DNA of 25,325 nucleotides from a virus. Below the pieces are notes generated by a model, which was given only the letters and a program-made list of their open reading frames with translations, had not been told where the DNA came from and searched no databases. Made by a program: the position numbers and the translations under genes. Positions 1,557 through 18,156 of the stretch are shown one piece after another (the stretch's first letter is position 1; each line of letters begins with the position of its first letter). The stretch covers positions 1 through 25,325 of the IMG/VR virus record IMGVR_UViG_3300033143_001958, one strand, 5' to 3'.

Positions 1557-3185
1557 ATGTTTAATTTATATGGATTTCAAGAACAACTAGAAAATAATGT
1601 TTATGCTCGGTGGGCGTGTGGTCACAGGAACGTTTTAGCTGTTGCGCCCACAGGATCGGGTAAAACTGTGTTCTTTTCTGATGTAATATCCAAAACGTTA
1701 GGTGGTGTGTGTGCGATAGCTCACAGACAAGAACTTGTAGGGCAAATGTCTCTTTCCCTTGCTAAGTTCGGTGTTCGTCATCGTATTATTGGACCAGTTA
1801 ACGTTATAAAGATGATTAACCAGTTGCATGTTTATGTATTGGGTAAATCCTTCTATGAACCGTCTGCACCTGTTGCGGTTGCCGGTGTCAATACTCTGGT
1901 TCGTCGTGGGCACTCTCTGAGGAACTGGTTACCACAGGTAAAATTATGGATCATGGATGAAGCACACCACGTGCTGCGGGACAATGTGTGGGGCAAGGCT
2001 GTTGATATGTTCCCCAACGCTCTGGGGTTAGGGGTTACAGCCACACCATGCAGGGCAGATGGTGCCGGTTTAGGTTCCCACGCGGATGGTGTTTTTGATG
2101 AAATGGTTGTGGGCCCAACGGGTCGGGAATTAATAGATCAAGGTTTTCTTGCGGATTATAGGATTTTTGCACCGCCTTCGGATATTAATTTTGATAATGT
2201 AAAGATTAGTAAAACCACTGGTGATTATGTTAAAAACCAGATGGTTGCAGCCACTAAAAATAGTCACATAATTGGTGATATTGTCGGGCACTATCTGAGA
2301 ATTGCCCCCGGTGCCCTTGGTATTACGTTCGTGCCATCTGTGGAAATAGCAGAAGATACTGCATCAAAATTTAATAGTGCCGGTGTTCCTTCTGTTGTCG
2401 TAAGTGCCAAAACCCCAGACATCGAACGGCAAAAAATCATGCGCCGGTTTTCTGCAGGAGATATTAAAAATCTAGTAAATGTTGATTTATTTGGTGAGGG
2501 TTTTGACCTTCCAAAATTATCAGTGGTCTCCATGGGTAGAAAAACAGAGTCCTATTCTTTATACTGCCAACAGTTTGGAAGACCTTTACGAAAGGACGAC
2601 GGTAAAACCCATGGTATTATCATCGACCACGTGGGTAATGTTATGCGACACGGTCTGCCCGATGGTCCACAAGATTGGTCACTTGACCGGCGCGAACGTA
2701 AACGGGCAAAACCGGACCCTGATCTAGTGCCCACCCGTACCTGTATCACATGCACCGCTGTTTATGAATCATGGTCGAAGGTGTGCCCATATTGCGGGAT
2801 GGTTTGGATACCGATGGAACGCGCCACACCTGAACAGGTGGAAGGTGATCTTGAAGAACTCGACCCAACAGTGTTACACGCCATGCGTAGTGAAATTAAT
2901 CGTGTGGATATAGACGCGGGAACGTTTAAACAACGGATGGAACGCGCCGGTCAATCAGGGATTGTTATAAATTCCGCAGCTAAAAACCACAGGGAACGGC
3001 AAGCGATGCAAGGAATATTGCGGGGAAATATAGCACAGTGGGCAGGTAACCATAAACACACCGGTCGCACTTATTCAGAAATTTATACACGGTTCTGGCG
3101 TGAGTTCGGAACCGATATCATGACAGCACAGACCCTCGGCGCGTCTGCTGCTGAAACTTTAAACAATAAACTGGTGGGGATATGA
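1557..3185 (+). CDS. DEAH-box superfamily 2 helicase with C-terminal zinc-finger-like cysteines
   Basis: This 542-residue protein is an ATP-dependent DNA or RNA translocase of the SF2 group related to UvsW/SSL2-type phage helicases. Visible motifs are an N-terminal YGFQEQ (Q-motif-like, residues 5-10), Walker A APTGSGKT (30-37), DEAH (134-137), TATP (motif III, 161-164) and, in the second RecA domain, QQFGRPLR (motif VI, about 339-346). About 50 residues later a CxxC...CxxC set (about 396-413) looks like a zinc ribbon. It is the first gene of the rightward operon and lies just after the palindromic promoter; its ribosome binding site is weak. Its likely role is in replication fork or recombination remodelling; this is inferred from family and neighbours. 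Confidence 0.9.
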   Translation: MFNLYGFQEQLENNVYARWACGHRNVLAVAPTGSGKTVFFSDVISKTLGGVCAIAHRQELVGQMSLSLAKFGVRHRIIGPVNVIKMINQLHVYVLGKSFYEPSAPVAVAGVNTLVRRGHSLRNWLPQVKLWIMDEAHHVLRDNVWGKAVDMFPNALGLGVTATPCRADGAGLGSHADGVFDEMVVGPTGRELIDQGFLADYRIFAPPSDINFDNVKISKTTGDYVKNQMVAATKNSHIIGDIVGHYLRIAPGALGITFVPSVEIAEDTASKFNSAGVPSVVVSAKTPDIERQKIMRRFSAGDIKNLVNVDLFGEGFDLPKLSVVSMGRKTESYSLYCQQFGRPLRKDDGKTHGIIIDHVGNVMRHGLPDGPQDWSLDRRERKRAKPDPDLVPTRTCITCTAVYESWSKVCPYCGMVWIPMERATPEQVEGDLEELDPTVLHAMRSEINRVDIDAGTFKQRMERAGQSGIVINSAAKNHRERQAMQGILRGNIAQWAGNHKHTGRTYSEIYTRFWREFGTDIMTAQTLGASAAETLNNKLVGI

Positions 3186-3619
3186 ATAAAACAGATAAGT
3201 ATAAACTGGTATTGTTAACCGTTATTAATTCAGGTGTGGATAGTGTTCTGAAACATTTCGAGGTGTCAAACCCTGATTTAATGGTATCACTCGGAAACGT
3301 TCACGCTTACACCAAGTACAGGATGACCGAAATCATCAGTAAAGATATTAAAATAGCACGGTGGGCACACAGGCGATTAAAAGAGTGGCGCAACGAGCTA
3401 AATGGTTCCGACCACGATATGAATATTACCACACTGGTGGCTTGTTCATATCAAGCAGCCGTTGACATGAATGGTATTGATTCACACGTTGCAGAAATAT
3501 TACCACCGCTTGAAAAACTTAGTGATTTTTTCCACATCGGGCGTAAATCAGAAGATAATTATGTCCGTGCAGATGAAACACTTGAGCCGTTATACAACCG
3601 AATAGGGTTTAAACCATGA
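3182..3619 (+). CDS. Hypothetical protein, replication operon
   Basis: This 145-residue protein belongs to no family I recognise. It is predicted soluble and mostly helical, with a charged middle part (around residues 45-75, many K and R) and no signal peptide or membrane segment. The ATG overlaps the helicase stop (ATGA), and its own stop overlaps the start of the methyltransferase-like gene, so it sits inside a tightly coupled operon. This supports it being real and expressed with the DNA-processing genes. No function can be assigned. Confidence 0.75.
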   Translation: MNKTDKYKLVLLTVINSGVDSVLKHFEVSNPDLMVSLGNVHAYTKYRMTEIISKDIKIARWAHRRLKEWRNELNGSDHDMNITTLVACSYQAAVDMNGIDSHVAEILPPLEKLSDFFHIGRKSEDNYVRADETLEPLYNRIGFKP

Positions 3620-4323
3620 GATATTTATCTGTATTCGATGGAATGTCGTGTGGTCGAATTGCCGTTGAACAATTGGGACTACCTATAACAAAATATTATG
3701 CCAGTGAAATCGACAAACATGCGGTTAAAGTAGCACAGGCAAACTACCCCGATACTGTTCACATTGGTGATGTGAGGGAGACAGGTGTTAATGAGCAGTG
3801 TTTTTATTACACCGAAAAAGCAATACAATGGCTTGGGCGACATAGCAGGAGTAAGGATAAAAAGCTATCTGTTCACGCTGATAGTGATAAAATGCAAATG
3901 CTAGAAGCAAGCCGCCACAAGAAATACAGCTCTCAAAGATTCTTTGGTATTGTCGATGTACCAACTGATAAACATTGTGTTGGCGCTATGCGTGGACGGT
4001 ATGTTGTGAACGGTAAACGCCAAGACGGGAAGATGGCAACCAAAGGGCTTACAAAACAATTTCTTGAATTTAGATATGATGGAAAGACAAACGCCTTAAC
4101 CACGGTTTCAAAAGACAATGTAGTTGTACCATTTACATTACCAAACCGCGTACCTGTTGAAGATTTCTTTTTTAGATACATCACCCCACTTAAATGCGAA
4201 CGTTTGCAGACTGTACCAGACGGTTACACTGATCACGTGAGCAATACCCAACGGTATAAAATGCTAGGTAATGGATGGACTGTTGATGTTATAAAACACA
4301 TATTACAGGGAATCAAACCATGA
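3616..4323 (+). CDS. C5 cytosine methyltransferase-like protein lacking the catalytic core
   Basis: At 235 residues this is shorter than the roughly 300-400 residues usual for phage C5 methyltransferases. The N-terminus holds the S-adenosylmethionine-binding motif I (VFDGMSCG, residues 6-13), SEIDK (30-34) and GDV (51-53). The sequence then jumps within about ten residues to YYTEKAIQW, which normally lies C-terminal to the catalytic part. The target-recognition-like region (GRYVVNGKRQDGK, NALTTV) and C-terminal motifs (TPLKCERLQTVPDGY, RYKMLGNGWTVDVI) are kept. The PCQ catalytic loop (motif IV), ENV (motif VI) and motif VIII are not found, so methyl transfer is unlikely. The frame is intact and overlaps both neighbours by 4 nt. 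It could be a DNA-binding remnant with a new role or a recent in-frame deletion. Confidence 0.85.
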   Translation: MRYLSVFDGMSCGRIAVEQLGLPITKYYASEIDKHAVKVAQANYPDTVHIGDVRETGVNEQCFYYTEKAIQWLGRHSRSKDKKLSVHADSDKMQMLEASRHKKYSSQRFFGIVDVPTDKHCVGAMRGRYVVNGKRQDGKMATKGLTKQFLEFRYDGKTNALTTVSKDNVVVPFTLPNRVPVEDFFFRYITPLKCERLQTVPDGYTDHVSNTQRYKMLGNGWTVDVIKHILQGIKP

Positions 4324-4790
4324 ATGATCTACAGGCATGGGCAAACCGGTGGCAGATCCCACAAGATGCACTCAACGACCTTCGGCACACCCTCGGCGCG
4401 GTGGACCAACCGGAACACGTTCACGGAACATCTGAGGCGGTTATACAACAACGGGTTAGATTATCAGCATCCGAAACCGGCGCAAGACTCTGGCGAAATA
4501 ATAACGGTGTAGCGCAAAACCCAACAGGGCAGCCGGTGCGGTATGGTCTGGCGAACGAATCCACGAAAATAAACCGTGTTCTGAAATCGTCCGACCTGAT
4601 TGGTATTACCCCTGTGATCATCACACCTGAGCACGTTGGGCATACCGTTGGCGTATTTACCGCAATTGAAGTTAAAAAATCAGGGTGGTGTTTTCGTGGT
4701 GCATCTAGGGAAACGGCGCAATTGAAATTTATATTATTGGTTCTGTCTATGGGCGGAATCGGGAAATTTAACAGTACGGGTATATTATGA
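4320..4790 (+). CDS. VRR-NUC domain nuclease
   Basis: This 156-residue protein contains a VRR-NUC domain, a small PD-(D/E)XK nuclease fold related to structure-specific and Holliday-junction nucleases. Visible features are GARLWRNNNGVAQ (about residues 60-72), VRYGL, KSSDLIGI with the metal-binding aspartate (about 90-97), and AIEVKKSGW supplying the ExK pair (about 118-126), followed by RETAQLKFI. About 50 residues precede the domain; similar standalone phage proteins are often shorter. It overlaps both neighbours by 4 nt. Its position after a helicase and a methyltransferase-like gene fits a role in resolving branched replication or recombination intermediates, which is inference from the family. 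Confidence 0.88.
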   Translation: MNDLQAWANRWQIPQDALNDLRHTLGAVDQPEHVHGTSEAVIQQRVRLSASETGARLWRNNNGVAQNPTGQPVRYGLANESTKINRVLKSSDLIGITPVIITPEHVGHTVGVFTAIEVKKSGWCFRGASRETAQLKFILLVLSMGGIGKFNSTGIL

Positions 4791-5122
4791 AAACGCGGGA
4801 AAAAATACTAAAAACATTTATCGAACTAACTGAAACCAATAACTACATCACGATTACCCGGGAACGGTTGGCATGTGCCACGGGTGTGGCTCCGACAACA
4901 ATCACCCACCACTTCAAAACCATGGACGGTTTACGGTCTATTTTATTACAACATTCTGTGAATTGTGGGGTAAAACGGGTTATCAGTCAGGCAATCATTA
5001 ACAACGATCCATTCATTAAATCAATCCCTTACGGGGTCCTCATTGATGCAGCAAAGACCATGTACCAGACCACTATCAGGGATCACGCGGACCCCGTTAA
5101 TCAAACAGATATCAAACGTTAA
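4787..5122 (+). CDS. Short TetR-like helix-turn-helix protein
   Basis: The N-terminal half (residues about 4-52) resembles a TetR DNA-binding domain: a first helix (REKILKTFIELTE), the ITRERLACATGVAPTTITHHF helix-turn-helix region and a following KTMDGLRSILL helix. The protein is only 111 residues, about half of a normal TetR regulator, so most of the ligand-binding domain is missing. It is the last gene of the rightward operon, overlapping the VRR-NUC gene by 4 nt, and is followed by a hairpin. It may regulate phage promoters such as the palindrome at 1487-1539, but nothing in the sequence proves that link. Confidence 0.72.
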   Translation: MKTREKILKTFIELTETNNYITITRERLACATGVAPTTITHHFKTMDGLRSILLQHSVNCGVKRVISQAIINNDPFIKSIPYGVLIDAAKTMYQTTIRDHADPVNQTDIKR

Positions 5123-5202: not shown

Positions 5203-7464
5203 TCACGACGCAAATACTTGCTCTGCGATACCACCCGATTGTGGTGCTTCACTTTGCGCTTTGATATACGCCTGTGTGATCATCGTACCGCCTGTTATTC
5301 CTGACTGTATTGAGTCCTTTAAAACATATAAACGTGGTTTCCTGTTTCCTTCTGTCACCAATGGACTATTAACTCGCCCCTGACTTAACCCCGGGTGTTT
5401 AATATACCCCAACGATTCGAGCATATCGGGACGTTTATTAACTGGTGTGCCTTTTACCCTCATCCCGTCAATTAAACGACTGAGGGCAATGCTACTAACC
5501 CAACCACCACAGAAACCTTTACGACCCTCGGCAACCGCCTGAATAACTCGTTGTTCTGTGTGACCATGTGAGGCAACCACAGCGGTTTGTATTGCACTTG
5601 TCCGTGGTGCCCGTTGTGCTCCGATAGTCGGGTTTAATTCATCTGGTATCTGGTAACTCTGTAAATAATCAATAACCTTAAGATACCCGTCGTTATTCGC
5701 CCACTCGAAGAGTTTATGAAAATACTTATCTGATCGTAAATCCGTGGCGTTCTGTTGTGCTGCGAAAAACGGTGCATACCGTCGTTCATTCTGGGTTATG
5801 ATCACACCATCTTTGTGATTAGTGAACAGGACAAAATTAGCACACGTTGAACCACTGCGTTGATTATCCCCTTTACCCTGTATTTCAATAAACGGTTGTG
5901 TGATCATCGGTTTCAGTAATTCCATGGTGTCATACTTCCCACCTATATTAACCTCATCGACGATAATCAAAATACTGTTTTCAATAAACAGGTTAAATTT
6001 ACTTCCTAGGTCACCCGCATTTTTAGGTGTGGTGTATCTACGTCCTATTGCTTTCACCAAACAATCAGAGATCAGGGATTTACCGTTACCCTGCACACCC
6101 TGAATCAACGGGCACCATCTGAATTTAAAACCTTTATACTGAATAACTGCAGCCATCCATGCAATTAATATCCCATGGTCCTCTGGGAACATCGATTTAA
6201 TGTGATCCATAAACGGTGTGATATCACCCTGAACACTGCGAATATTCGGCGCAACATACGTATTAATAGCCGTTCGCCCTAGGTTATCGGTCACAACTTC
6301 CTGTGGTTTCTTATCAGGTCTAAAACAAATATCATCAACCTTCGGGAAAACATACCCTTGTGACTCGGTAAATGCTTTCCATGCGTCGGGTGTGGTCTTG
6401 CTACCGTGTGAATCACTCAACATAAACGCATACCCACCATAAACAGCTTTAAACCGTGGTGAATCGAGTGTGGCACCGTTCGGCACCAATATTTTATTTA
6501 ACTCTGTAATATATGTGCAGTCTTTAAAATACTCGATCTGGTTATCAATATATAAAATCGGTATATCAGTGCGACGGGCACCGGTCTCGGTTTTAATATC
6601 TGCCGATTTACCATAGACGGTTTTAACAATAGAACAGGCGTTTAAAATCGTATCCCTGCGGTACTGCTCACGGTCTAACCATTTATCTCTTTTACCGAGT
6701 GCGGATAACCTAAACAACCTATCCATTCGCTCGCAGTCTTTACCAGTCCAGAACGCCAGAAGATTACACAACGACTGGTCCAACGAACTGTGGTCGTGTT
6801 CGGGTGTCACTTCACAATCCCATAATTCTTTAAACGACATTTTACCACCGAACGCGCCACCAACCGATTTACTATTATACATTTTACCGATCAAACCATT
6901 ATCGTCATCGGGTCCGTGCCATTCAGATAGTGGTTTATCCGTCCATTCCACATCATTCTTCACAACCTTTTTAAAATACGCATCCACTAACCATTTAACC
7001 TGATCATCACACACCATTGTGGGATCACCACACGCGTTATTACCGGTGAGTGCTACATATCTATCGGTTGTGTAAAATTCTAATTGTGCAGGGACGTTTT
7101 TACATGCGTGTTCTATCCCTGTGGTCATACTACCGAATATGTGGCAACCGGTGCCCGATATACTCGACTCATAATAACAAGCCGGTGTGAAGATACCCAG
7201 TAAACGGGTGGCTAACTCCGACCACTGACCATCGCGGTATGCTTTGTCGATATCCAGAAAGAAAAACGGATCGTTCCTTGTAAATACGAAACCGATACCA
7301 CTACCGGTGGTCAACCCTGCCTCGGCTTGTTCGGCAGTCATGTGATGCAATGGGTTCATGGGATCGAACTGTTTACCAGGGAATGCGGGATTGAATGGCA
7401 TTTTATCTGCTACATTATATAAGACGAATTGCGGGTATTTTCTGAATGCTTCGGGGATAATCAT
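5203..7464 (-). CDS. Primase-polymerase fused to a D5-like SF3 helicase
   Basis: This leftward gene encodes 753 residues from ATG at 7464, which has a well-placed AGGA site; the frame extends to an ATG at 7554 without a good site. The N-terminal part is a prim-pol domain: FLDID (about residues 69-73) supplies the metal-binding aspartates, SGTGCHIFG (about 100-108) matches the SxH-type motif, and EFYTTDRYVALTG matches the last conserved block. The C-terminal part is an SF3 ATPase: QGVQGNGKS Walker A (about 454-462), ILIIVDEV Walker B (about 500-507) and NFVLFTNHKDGVII plus ERRYAPF for the sensor and arginine-finger region. It probably primes and unwinds at the phage origin, possibly the adjacent region at 7640-8090. 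Confidence 0.9.
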   Translation of the reverse strand: MIIPEAFRKYPQFVLYNVADKMPFNPAFPGKQFDPMNPLHHMTAEQAEAGLTTGSGIGFVFTRNDPFFFLDIDKAYRDGQWSELATRLLGIFTPACYYESSISGTGCHIFGSMTTGIEHACKNVPAQLEFYTTDRYVALTGNNACGDPTMVCDDQVKWLVDAYFKKVVKNDVEWTDKPLSEWHGPDDDNGLIGKMYNSKSVGGAFGGKMSFKELWDCEVTPEHDHSSLDQSLCNLLAFWTGKDCERMDRLFRLSALGKRDKWLDREQYRRDTILNACSIVKTVYGKSADIKTETGARRTDIPILYIDNQIEYFKDCTYITELNKILVPNGATLDSPRFKAVYGGYAFMLSDSHGSKTTPDAWKAFTESQGYVFPKVDDICFRPDKKPQEVVTDNLGRTAINTYVAPNIRSVQGDITPFMDHIKSMFPEDHGILIAWMAAVIQYKGFKFRWCPLIQGVQGNGKSLISDCLVKAIGRRYTTPKNAGDLGSKFNLFIENSILIIVDEVNIGGKYDTMELLKPMITQPFIEIQGKGDNQRSGSTCANFVLFTNHKDGVIITQNERRYAPFFAAQQNATDLRSDKYFHKLFEWANNDGYLKVIDYLQSYQIPDELNPTIGAQRAPRTSAIQTAVVASHGHTEQRVIQAVAEGRKGFCGGWVSSIALSRLIDGMRVKGTPVNKRPDMLESLGYIKHPGLSQGRVNSPLVTEGNRKPRLYVLKDSIQSGITGGTMITQAYIKAQSEAPQSGGIAEQVFAS

Positions 7465-7570
7465 GTGGTGTCCTCGGTCAAAGGTGGTCAATGAAAAGAA
7501 ACATGGCGCGGGTCGGTGACCAAACCAGACCCTCGGGTGTTCACCCTCTACCATGCCCTGTGGAGCACTT

Positions 7571-7599
7571 AAAATATATTATCACAATTTATACGTCAA
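7571..7599 (-). promoter_or_regulatory. Probable promoter of the primase-helicase gene
   Basis: Read leftward, TTGACG (complement of 7594-7599) is 17 bp from TATTTT (complement of 7571-7576). The predicted start near 7564 gives a leader of about 100 nt to the chosen ATG at 7464. Within that leader a GGGTG-AA-CACCC hairpin could form. The match is good but there is no experimental support. Confidence 0.55.
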
Positions 7600-7642
7600 G
7601 TTTTTTTACATAAATATAATCTAACAACCACATGGGTACCGC

Positions 7643-7678
7643 TATCATTCGCTATCATCTACCCCGCACCTGTATCAT
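7643..7678 (+). repeat. Phased TATCAT repeats (iteron-like)
   Basis: TATCAT occurs at 7643-7648, 7653-7658 and 7673-7678, spaced 10 and 20 bp apart, so all three face the same side of the helix. The first two sit in nearly identical 10-bp tandem units (CGCTATCATT and CGCTATCATC). This resembles a short iteron array for an initiator protein. Confidence 0.55.
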
Positions 7679-7977
7679 TACCCTACATTAAGTCCCTGTT
7701 ATAACGTTGTTACCCCACGCACCCGAACTAAATACCAATTCAACGGTTATTTACCCCCTCCCTCTTTAACCCCATATTATTACCCTTTCGCCCCATGGTG
7801 TGCGGGTGTGTTTAACTACCTGTAAACACGTTATTAAACAACCCTATTTATCCTTTTACCCCTCCGAGGGGGTTGTTTTTCTATCCCCACTATATAGACC
7901 CCCCCCCTATGTAATATACACCATATACATGTGTACTATATATACCATATTATTATTATTAAAGGGGTAAGGGGTAA
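7678..7977. repeat. Dispersed TTACCC(C) elements, seven copies
   Basis: TTACCC(C) occurs on the + strand at 7678-7683, 7710-7716, 7751-7757, 7780-7785 and 7856-7862. It occurs on the - strand at 7964-7970 and 7971-7977, where two copies are in direct tandem. Seven copies in 300 bp with an orientation change suggest protein-binding or priming sites, though the strong C bias raises chance expectation. Confidence 0.5.
7837..7880 (+). terminator. Hairpin with T run, probable rightward terminator
   Basis: An outer stem pairs AACAACCC (7837-7844) with GGGTTGTT (7870-7877). An inner alternative pairs CCCC (7859-7862) with GGGG around TCCGA. T residues follow to 7880. No rightward gene lies directly upstream, so if it works it would end a non-coding or origin transcript, or readthrough from the left. 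Confidence 0.45.
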
Positions 7978-8093
7978 AAGGAGGGTAGAGGCACTGGTGC
8001 CAACGGTTCCCAAGCCCCCGCGTGTGTGGGGTTCTGTGGGGTGTGTAGGGGTGTAGTAAATCTAACAGTTCGACGGTGTGGGTGTTTATTCGT

Positions 8094-8121
8094 TTGACTT
8101 TTGGTGGGGTGCTGTTATTCT
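8094..8121 (+). promoter_or_regulatory. Promoter of the morphogenesis operon
   Basis: TTGACT (8094-8099) is 16 bp from TATTCT (8116-8121). The expected start is at about 8127-8129, on the ATG of the small terminase gene, so the transcript would be leaderless. The sequence TTCGTTTGACT (8089-8099) resembles the palindrome arm at 1487-1498 with one extra T, which may indicate shared control. Confidence 0.6.
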
Positions 8122-8127
8122 GTGATT

Positions 8128-8643
8128 ATGCGAACACAGCTCACAAAAAAACAAAGTATATTTTGCTACCAATACGCCCAATTAGGTAACGCCACCAATG
8201 CCTATATAAACGCGGGATATTCCCAACACGAAAAACGTTCTGTGATTACTAGGAACGCTTCACGGTTGATGGAAAAACCACTAATACAAGCAAAGATTTT
8301 AGAACTACAGGCAGAGCTTGCAAACGATATCATGGTGGATGCTCGAACCGTTGTACAAGAATATGCTAGAATCAGTTTTAGCGATATTAAAGAATTTTAC
8401 GACAAAGATGGTCAGTTGATCCCATTTCATAAACTACCAACCAACCTATCACATGCTATTGCTGCCGTTGAGCATAAAGTGGATAAAGATGGGAAGATAT
8501 ACCCTAGTAAAGTGAAGTTATGGGCAAAACCACAGGCATTACGTGCATTGGGTGACCACCTTGGTCTATTTGTAGCCGAAAACAACTCATCTGATGCCCT
8601 CATTGAAGCGTTTACAAACATGGCGAACCAACTACCCGAATGA
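8128..8643 (+). CDS. terS: Terminase small subunit (Terminase_2 type)
   Basis: This 171-residue protein recognises phage DNA and delivers it to the large terminase subunit. LTKKQSIFCYQYAQLGNATNAYINAGYS (split: a KKQ start, a YAQLGNATNAY helix and a GYS turn) is the N-terminal HTH region of the Terminase_2 family, and the central helices (MEKPLIQAKILELQAEL) form the oligomerisation part. The segment VVQEYARISFSDIKEFYD and the C-terminal KLWAKPQALRALGDHLGLF are typical of the family. I chose ATG at 8128 because a promoter -10 box lies seven bases upstream; the frame opens earlier with a TTG at 8101, which would fall inside the promoter. The large subunit gene overlaps by 4 nt. Confidence 0.88.
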   Translation: MRTQLTKKQSIFCYQYAQLGNATNAYINAGYSQHEKRSVITRNASRLMEKPLIQAKILELQAELANDIMVDARTVVQEYARISFSDIKEFYDKDGQLIPFHKLPTNLSHAIAAVEHKVDKDGKIYPSKVKLWAKPQALRALGDHLGLFVAENNSSDALIEAFTNMANQLPE

Positions 8644-16838: not shown

Positions 16839-17221
16839 GTACCGAGGCGGTCAGGGCAATACTCGAAGCACGGTTGCAAACTGAATGGAGTACTACTACC
16901 CCAATTGTTTGGGACAATGTGAATTACACCCCAGTGATCGGAACACCTTATATTGATTGCCACTTGGAGGGTGTTTTCTCCGTGATCAAGTCGTCATCTT
17001 GTCAACGTGAACACTATCTATTCACCATTGATGTTTATACACCCGGCAACATCACCGCTAAAACAGCAATGGTGTACACCGACACACTAGAGGCAATGTT
17101 TTACGGGTTTGCTTCTGGGCAACTAAGCATTCAAACAACTCACAGTGAACGGATCGGCACCATTAACGAGTGGCACCACAGAATTGTTTTAATCGATTTA
17201 TTTTTTGACCAACACTACTAA
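16835..17221 (+). CDS. Tail terminator protein (DUF4128-like)
   Basis: This 128-residue protein matches the DUF4128-like tail terminators, which cap the tail tube and join it to the head. It shows an N-terminal helix (EAVRAILEARLQTEW), the PIVWDNVNYTP segment, YIDCHLEG and REHYLFTIDVYTP with the central strands of the fold. Its place between the gp10-like gene and the tail tube gene is the standard one. The gene is followed 14 bases later by the tail tube start with GAGGT. Confidence 0.78.
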   Translation: MSTEAVRAILEARLQTEWSTTTPIVWDNVNYTPVIGTPYIDCHLEGVFSVIKSSSCQREHYLFTIDVYTPGNITAKTAMVYTDTLEAMFYGFASGQLSIQTTHSERIGTINEWHHRIVLIDLFFDQHY

Positions 17222-17235
17222 ATAGAGGTTACACC

Positions 17236-18156
17236 ATGGGTGCTCAAGGCGCGCAATCAGGAATATCATTCATTAAAGAGGTAACATGGGGAACCACCCC
17301 CACCGCCCAGTTTGCCGGAGTGAACTTTATTTCAGAAGATATGGGCATGGCACTTGAGAAAAATGTCTCTGGCACCATTCGCCCTGATCGTCAAACGGCT
17401 GCCCTCGTTTTGGTTGGTGCTGAAACGGATGGTGGTTTTGAAACAGAATTTCAAGCAACGAATTTAGATACACTATTACCAGGGTTTTTTATGGTCGACG
17501 ATTGGACCACACACGTTATTCAAAACGGCGTTGATCAATCGTCTTATTCCATCGAACGTAGTCATAATGATATTGGGCAGTTTTTCCTCTATGCAGGGAT
17601 GACACCGAACACTATGGAATTATCGTTTGAGTCTGGTGAACCGGTATTGTGTAAATTATCATTTGTCGGTAAAGACGAAGCACTAGCACAAGCAACACAC
17701 TCCTCATCTGCCGCCACTACCCCTGTGACCACACCGATTATGAATTCTGTCACCTCAGTGGGTTCCATTGAAATAGGCGGGGTGGGTGTTGCATCTTGTT
17801 TGATTCAGAAAGTTGATTTCAAAATTGATAACCAGGTGGAAGGTAAAACAGGTGTTGGAACACTCGGTTTCTGTTTCGCCCGTGAGAAATCGTTACTTGT
17901 GACGGGTAATCTATCACTGTATTTCAACGATGAAACATATTATGATTACAAACTTGATAACACCGCTTTCAGTCTCGAAATACCCTTGACCGATACCGAT
18001 GGAAACGTTTACACTTTCTTACTTGCTCAATGTGAGTTTGACGATATGAAAGCAAATGTAGGCGGTAAGGACGACGATGTAATGGTTGAGGGAAGTTTTA
18101 CGGCTTATATGGGTTCTGGTGGATTTACCATCAAATGTACCCGTTCTTTAATTTAA
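17236..18156 (+). CDS. Major tail tube protein
   Basis: This 306-residue strand-rich protein is the probable subunit of the tail tube. It begins with GISFIKEVTWGTTPT, a typical opening for this group of tail tube proteins, followed by VSGTIRPDRQTAALVLVG and ETDGGFETEFQ. Further conserved-looking segments are FKIDNQVEGKTGVG and FSLEIPLTDTDG. It lies between the tail terminator and the tail assembly chaperone. A strong hairpin with T run follows its stop, which could raise its output relative to the downstream genes. Confidence 0.82.
   Translation: MGAQGAQSGISFIKEVTWGTTPTAQFAGVNFISEDMGMALEKNVSGTIRPDRQTAALVLVGAETDGGFETEFQATNLDTLLPGFFMVDDWTTHVIQNGVDQSSYSIERSHNDIGQFFLYAGMTPNTMELSFESGEPVLCKLSFVGKDEALAQATHSSSAATTPVTTPIMNSVTSVGSIEIGGVGVASCLIQKVDFKIDNQVEGKTGVGTLGFCFAREKSLLVTGNLSLYFNDETYYDYKLDNTAFSLEIPLTDTDGNVYTFLLAQCEFDDMKANVGGKDDDVMVEGSFTAYMGSGGFTIKCTRSLI

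Follow-up and report, generated by a model that had tools for sequence, protein, structure and literature searches.

The intergenic region at 7620-8090 of the virus record IMGVR_UViG_3300033143_001958, a 25.3-kb fragment (25,325 nucleotides, hereafter the window), is likely to be the replication origin of this phage, judging from sequence comparison with relatives and from analogy with described systems. The region lies between a minus-strand gene for a primase-polymerase (prim-pol) with a superfamily 3 (SF3) helicase and a plus-strand late operon led by the terminase small subunit gene terS. It would be an origin of the initiator-box type, organised like those of Staphylococcus aureus pathogenicity islands (SaPIs) and phage-inducible chromosomal islands (PICIs). 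An earlier sequence-only reading had proposed an origin here. Conservation, covarying boxes, linkage to prim-pol and a precedent in phage NrS-1 now back this proposal, from which we infer the function, whereas the skew and TATCAT arguments of that reading found no support.

The array has a two-sided anatomy (Table 1). Five TTACCC copies lie on the plus strand to the left of the AT-rich core and two on the minus strand to its right, and neither side contains a copy in the opposite orientation. This flip had been described from the letters alone, together with the C9 tract, the G runs and a reversal from C-rich to G-rich beside the primase-helicase gene, all of which are present; the composition switches from 32% C and 12% G (7640-7900) to 14% C and 39% G (7962-8127). 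Region 7620-8090 contains seven copies of TTACCC, where 1.6 would be expected (P = 0.0005 for TTACCC itself). If the word could have been chosen freely, the excess over chance is only moderate, with P = 0.011 for any non-homopolymer hexamer and P = 0.06 when homopolymer words are also allowed. A perfect 13-bp inverted repeat spans the core and links one left box with the right tandem, which is located 164 bp from the terS ATG. On the right flank, GTG, the known start motif of the NrS-1 prim-pol (PMC8718748), was counted 14 times in 7981-8127, compared with 6.7 expected. The array region matched no RNA element in Rfam, and the single-strand folding of 7840-8127 was unexceptional (z = -1.2).

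The same layout recurs in relatives. Relatives of the prim-pol were gathered by an alignment-based search, which gave hundreds of proteins with identities up to 46%; a direct single-protein search gave no close viral relative. The recurrent order is C-rich boxes, AT-rich core, G-rich tandem, inverted-repeat flank, promoter-like sequence and gene. The element is located upstream of late genes, in most relatives upstream of terS and 2-4 kb downstream of prim-pol, and its upstream neighbour is usually on the opposite strand. Divergent GGGGTA lineages keep their tandem 161-169 bp away from the start of terS. Isolated phages also carry the element, namely Klebsiella phages IME346 and JustaPhage, Escherichia phage ZCEC13, Edwardsiella phage MSW-3, Acinetobacter phage Scuro and, with other boxes, Stenotrophomonas phage B2. 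Among 20 terS-upstream regions from further prim-pol contigs, 16-18 carry it as judged by eye. A strict automatic test accepts 12 of these regions; it also accepts 11% of shuffled sequences and, from relatives of the terminase gene terL, one piece in 68. Two of the 12 acceptances (G087 and G062) rest on words that do not resemble boxes. A motif scan blind to genes gave 73 contigs, many of which were coding matches without relevance, and most of the AT-rich intergenic matches in long contigs led back to prim-pol phages. Absence of the array where the replication genes are kept would have spoken against an origin; it is present in most prim-pol relatives.

The box sequence changes between lineages. 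The window and many other genomes have GGGGTA; the box is GTGGTA in G016, GGTCAT in G055, CCGGTA in G072, GAGGTA in G048, ACTTGG in B2 and GGTTAC in NrS-1. In most genomes, the flanking boxes match the tandem of their own genome and not those of other genomes. With the tandem masked, the own-unit counts sum to 57 against a permutation mean of 10 (P < 1e-5), a value that is somewhat optimistic since the units of G072 and G017 overlap, the units were picked by eye and the NrS-1 tandem was unmasked. In G061, no extra box copies were found outside its tandem. Since the flanks and the tandem change together within a genome, one protein probably reads all of its boxes. The suggestion that the TTACCC elements are initiator or primase sites thus receives comparative support from conservation, box covariation, prim-pol linkage and the NrS-1 precedent.

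The array tracks prim-pol and not the terminase, as seen from two sets of genomes. The window terL has 43 viral relatives with 63-72% identity; the array was found in none of these 43, and prim-pol in none of the 23 records tested. NrS-2 and NrS-3 share terS-terL with NrS-1, the match to NrS-2 being 88% identical and beginning exactly at the terS start codon, and neither genome has a prim-pol gene at that place or the array. Since NrS-2 and NrS-3 keep terS-terL without these two, the array is exchanged with the replication module. These comparisons bear on the idea that the element is a packaging (cos or pac) site bound by the small terminase subunit, which would suit an element that immediately precedes terS, as this one does in the window and in most relatives. 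Such a site should be found with related terminases, but the element is absent from the terL relatives and from NrS-2 and NrS-3, it is present with unrelated terminases, and second copies occur far from terS. We therefore rejected a packaging site, which we consider extremely improbable, as the element does not travel with the terminase genes.

Phage NrS-1 provides the closest precedent. The window prim-pol matches PF22763, the NrS-1-type helix bundle, with 63.9 bits, and its predicted model resembles the NrS-1 structures in the N-terminal (6a9w, Z = 19.3) and C-terminal (6k9c, Z = 24.1) parts. The protein comprises an archaeo-eukaryotic primase (AEP) domain, the helix bundle, an SF3 helicase and a winged-helix-like C-terminus; with an AEP domain, this bundle and an SF3 C-terminal region, it is predicted to be an NrS-1-type prim-pol. 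The template sequences recognised by the NrS-1 enzyme are 5'-TTTGGTTA-3' and 5'-GTG-3' (PMC8718748). We found a single exact TTTGGTTA in the NrS-1 genome, at 17198 within an array between prim-pol and terS, compared with the two copies, one per strand, counted in PMC7102993. The chance of a single site falling in this array is about 1%, and 3 of the 33 sites with at most one mismatch are in the array, which makes up 0.9% of the genome. In the NrS-1 array, AAAGTGTAACC/GGTTACACTTT repeats of either orientation surround an AT-rich stretch, and the repeat itself includes GTG. An annotated hypothetical gene, NRS1_29 (17055-17456), overlies these repeats and may not be a real gene. NrS-1 and the window thus share a homologous prim-pol (PF22763; Z = 19-24) and an inverted-repeat array with an AT-rich stretch between prim-pol and terS. 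They differ in the box, GGTTACAC with a 12-bp tandem period in NrS-1 and GGGGTAA with a 7-bp period in the window, and the proteins are about 26% identical. Neither TTTGGTTA nor TAACCAAA was found in the window region 7555-8127.

In PICI origins, two iteron sets flank an AT-rich region, the presumed melting site (PMC6092414). The window array resembles SaPI/PICI Pri-Rep origins in this layout and in its lineage-specific iteron sequences (PMC6092414). The predicted prim-pol model is also a close structural match to the SaPI5 primase-helicase (Z = 17.7), and the PriRep1 fold was matched as well. Like the cognate initiators of such origins, the modelled protein would combine an SF3 helicase and a C-terminal DNA-binding domain with a fused primase. 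On the other hand, PICIs are satellites, whereas the window comes from a tailed phage that itself encodes terL, a portal and structural proteins; the AEP domain is of the NrS-1 type; and the array of the relatives stands before the late operon, sometimes in two copies. The PICI origin is 3' of rep, whereas the window array is 5' of an inverted prim-pol; in NrS-1, but not in the window, the candidate origin is immediately 3' of the putative initiator gene. The window prim-pol gene is inverted relative to those of the relatives, and helicase, endonuclease and prim-pol are co-oriented in the prim-pol loci checked. Because of this inversion, the 5' end of the window prim-pol abuts the array. We therefore do not file the array as a PICI origin and suggest by analogy only that it works like one.

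Two other systems show partial likeness. In the related SCCmec system, with the putative origin of Cch2/CCPol-MP, the initiator helicase uses its C-terminal domain to bind short direct repeats, within which the primase starts (PMC7581432). That origin differs in having three 5-nt iterons, a separate helicase and primase, and a chromosomal cassette as its setting (PMC7581432). Plasmid pRN1 encodes ORF904, an AEP-SF3-winged-helix protein for replication that has GTG priming and a non-coding origin nearby, but this origin is a large stem-loop without iterons (PMC4234260). When the pRN1 authors searched the AEP phage BIP-1 for iterons, they concluded that the ones present were not origins; in phage P4, the iterons are bound by the winged-helix domain (PMC4234260).

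From this organisation we infer a mechanism that covers the binding protein, melting, priming and direction. The prim-pol/SF3 protein, or a co-encoded partner, would bind the TTACCC(C)/GGGGTAA boxes, which are in opposite orientation on either side of the AT-rich core. SF3 hexamers would assemble on the tandem next to the core, which they would then melt, and the AEP domain would prime on the exposed strands. Since the element is directly upstream of the late promoter, initiator binding may also influence late transcription. A small TetR_N-like helix-turn-helix (HTH) protein encoded beside prim-pol could be an alternative box reader. Its counterparts in IME346, ZCEC13 and Scuro score above the Pfam cut-off, and the gene is directly upstream of prim-pol in relatives.

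Several observations weigh against the origin. The window box GGGGTAA differs from TTTGGTTA, the strict test passes only 12 of the 20 terS-upstream regions, and no element can be made out clearly in G064 or G087. The silent sites of 12 larger genomes show no consistent replication-arm skew from the element, transcription control would likewise account for the tight spacing from the start of the late gene, and in several genomes second copies stand before other late operons (neck or another late gene). In JustaPhage (around 77 and 13538) and ZCEC13 (around 213 and 15056), the two copies within a genome are identical or near-identical over about 250 bp, ending just before the promoter. The Jedunavirus copies are more alike within a genome than between phages and are thus homogenised, which points to gene conversion. 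The two copies of G061 (about 5.1 kb and 22596) seem to differ, with a GGTTAA type before terS and a GGGTAA type in the second.

The second copies fit late-transcription control at least as well as an origin. On this view, the boxes would be the target of an activator or repressor made by the phage, for example the TetR_N-like protein, which would switch the late promoter, and no origin would be present. The fixed 161-169 bp to the terS start, the promoter-like sites downstream of the boxes, the second copies upstream of neck or other late genes, the homogenisation of copies within Jedunavirus genomes, and the HTH gene adjoining prim-pol are all consistent with this. However, it leaves unexplained why the sole exact NrS-1 prim-pol recognition site falls inside the array and why the layout of two-sided iterons and AT core is the one typical of SF3-initiator origins. 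Moreover, over 100 bp separate the tandem from the promoter-like site downstream of it, and other late segments in the same genomes have no copy. We consider late control without an origin rather unlikely.

An origin with two sites would also suit the second copies. The alpha protein of phage P4 acts with ori and crr, and phage SPP1 has oriL and oriR; in both, initiator-bound repeats form two separated sites per genome. Two separated sites are likewise found in Jedunavirus and in G002 and G006, while the primase types and repeat sequences of P4 and SPP1 are unlike those here. Since homogenised second copies suit both late control and a two-site origin, late control remains our principal rival explanation, and a dual role is retained as a further reading. 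In the latter, which we put forward tentatively and do not favour, one protein would read the lineage-specific boxes, melt the core and prime, and the array, in one or two copies, would also license late-operon transcription. If so, replication initiation and the early-to-late switch would share one DNA element in autonomous tailed phages with an NrS-1-type prim-pol.

GC skew was rejected as evidence for the origin. The cumulative skew of the window has its minimum at 7946, yet skew in the window largely follows the coding strand, being positive over the plus-strand genes at 1557-5122 and negative over the minus-strand prim-pol. In a silent-site regression that accounted for gene strand in the 12 genomes, the arm effect was of mixed sign and strong only in B2. 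Since the skew follows gene strand and silent sites have no consistent arm effect, the skew argument is unsupported. Taken by itself, a generic skew-flip score marks the element only weakly (20 of 35 prim-pol regions), and several high flips at other loci are coding sequence. The TATCAT repeats are real (7643, 7653 and 7673, spaced 10 and 20 bp), but their choice was post hoc and they form no conserved array in relatives, so their phasing was rejected as an origin component.

The skew minimum at the gene divergence would also be expected if the region held only ordinary divergent promoters, a terminator, coding-strand skew and chance repeats. The divergent genes, the promoter-like and terminator-like sites on both sides and the moderate hexamer enrichment in the window alone agree with this. 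The conserved AT core and tandem, the box covariation and the prim-pol linkage would nevertheless be left unexplained. The sequence-only reading had likewise considered the combination unexplained by promoters alone. This already disfavoured explanation is very unlikely.

Further features surround the array. The true start of prim-pol is likely at 7464, an ATG preceded by GAGGA. The window encodes its own terminase, with terL following terS, and the late operon extends over 17 kb. The terminator-like hairpin could block early rightward transcripts (genes 1557-5122) from entering this operon. In six relatives (G001, G004, G006, G008, G010 and G013), the divergent gene left of the element encodes a protein that recurs in this place, is rich in cysteine and has the pattern TGxxCxxGHxxxRYxxxGxCxxC; it is possibly a free-standing nuclease. 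Three contigs (L154, L170 and L177), in which no prim-pol was detected, contain an unrelated-looking conserved intergenic sequence with AAGGGGTAAGGGGTAAA.

Table 1 Features of the array and its surroundings in the window.
Feature	Position	Strand	Basis
Small TetR_N-like HTH protein gene, alternative candidate box reader	4787..5122	+	below Pfam cut-off in window
Prim-pol/SF3 replication protein gene	5203..7554	-	PHROG 1829, PF22763, PF19263; predicted model
Promoter-like site of prim-pol gene, TTGACG-17-TATTTT	7571..7599	-	consensus scan; not evidence of function
Left boxes: TACCCC 7660; TTACCC 7678, 7710, 7751, 7780, 7856	7660..7861	+	word positions, enrichment
Perfect 13-bp inverted repeat	left arm 7851..7863, right arm 7970-7982	+	repeat search
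Terminator-like hairpin followed by TGTTTTTC, overlapping last left box	7858..7873	+	terminator scan
C9 tract	7899..7907	+	sequence
AT-rich core, presumed melting site; best 50 bp 82% AT	about 7908..7962	.	composition
Right boxes: core-proximal tandem AGGGGTA-AGGGGTAA; TTACCC on - at 7965, 7972	7963..7977	+	word positions
G-rich right flank, GTG-rich, with CCCC/GGGG inverted repeat	7978..8093	+	composition
Sigma70-type promoter-like site of late operon, TTGACT-16-TATTCT, TG before second hexamer	8094..8121	+	consensus scan
terS, terminase small subunit, first late operon gene, ATG 8128 (open reading frame listed from 8101)	8128..8643	+	PF03592

An element that is widespread in autonomous phages, covaries in its boxes and is linked to an NrS-1-type prim-pol appears to be new as far as the open literature searched shows; the NrS-1 array may have been mentioned earlier. 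The box-flanked AT-core layout is known from satellites and is found here in free-living phages, among them isolated phages of Klebsiella, Escherichia, Edwardsiella, Acinetobacter and Nitratiruptor. NrS-1, with its solved prim-pol structures and measured recognition site, gains a concrete candidate origin. Because relatives differ in box sequence but not in layout, the family would be a natural data set for the co-change of initiator and origin, and the box specificity of the putative initiator becomes directly testable in culturable phages.
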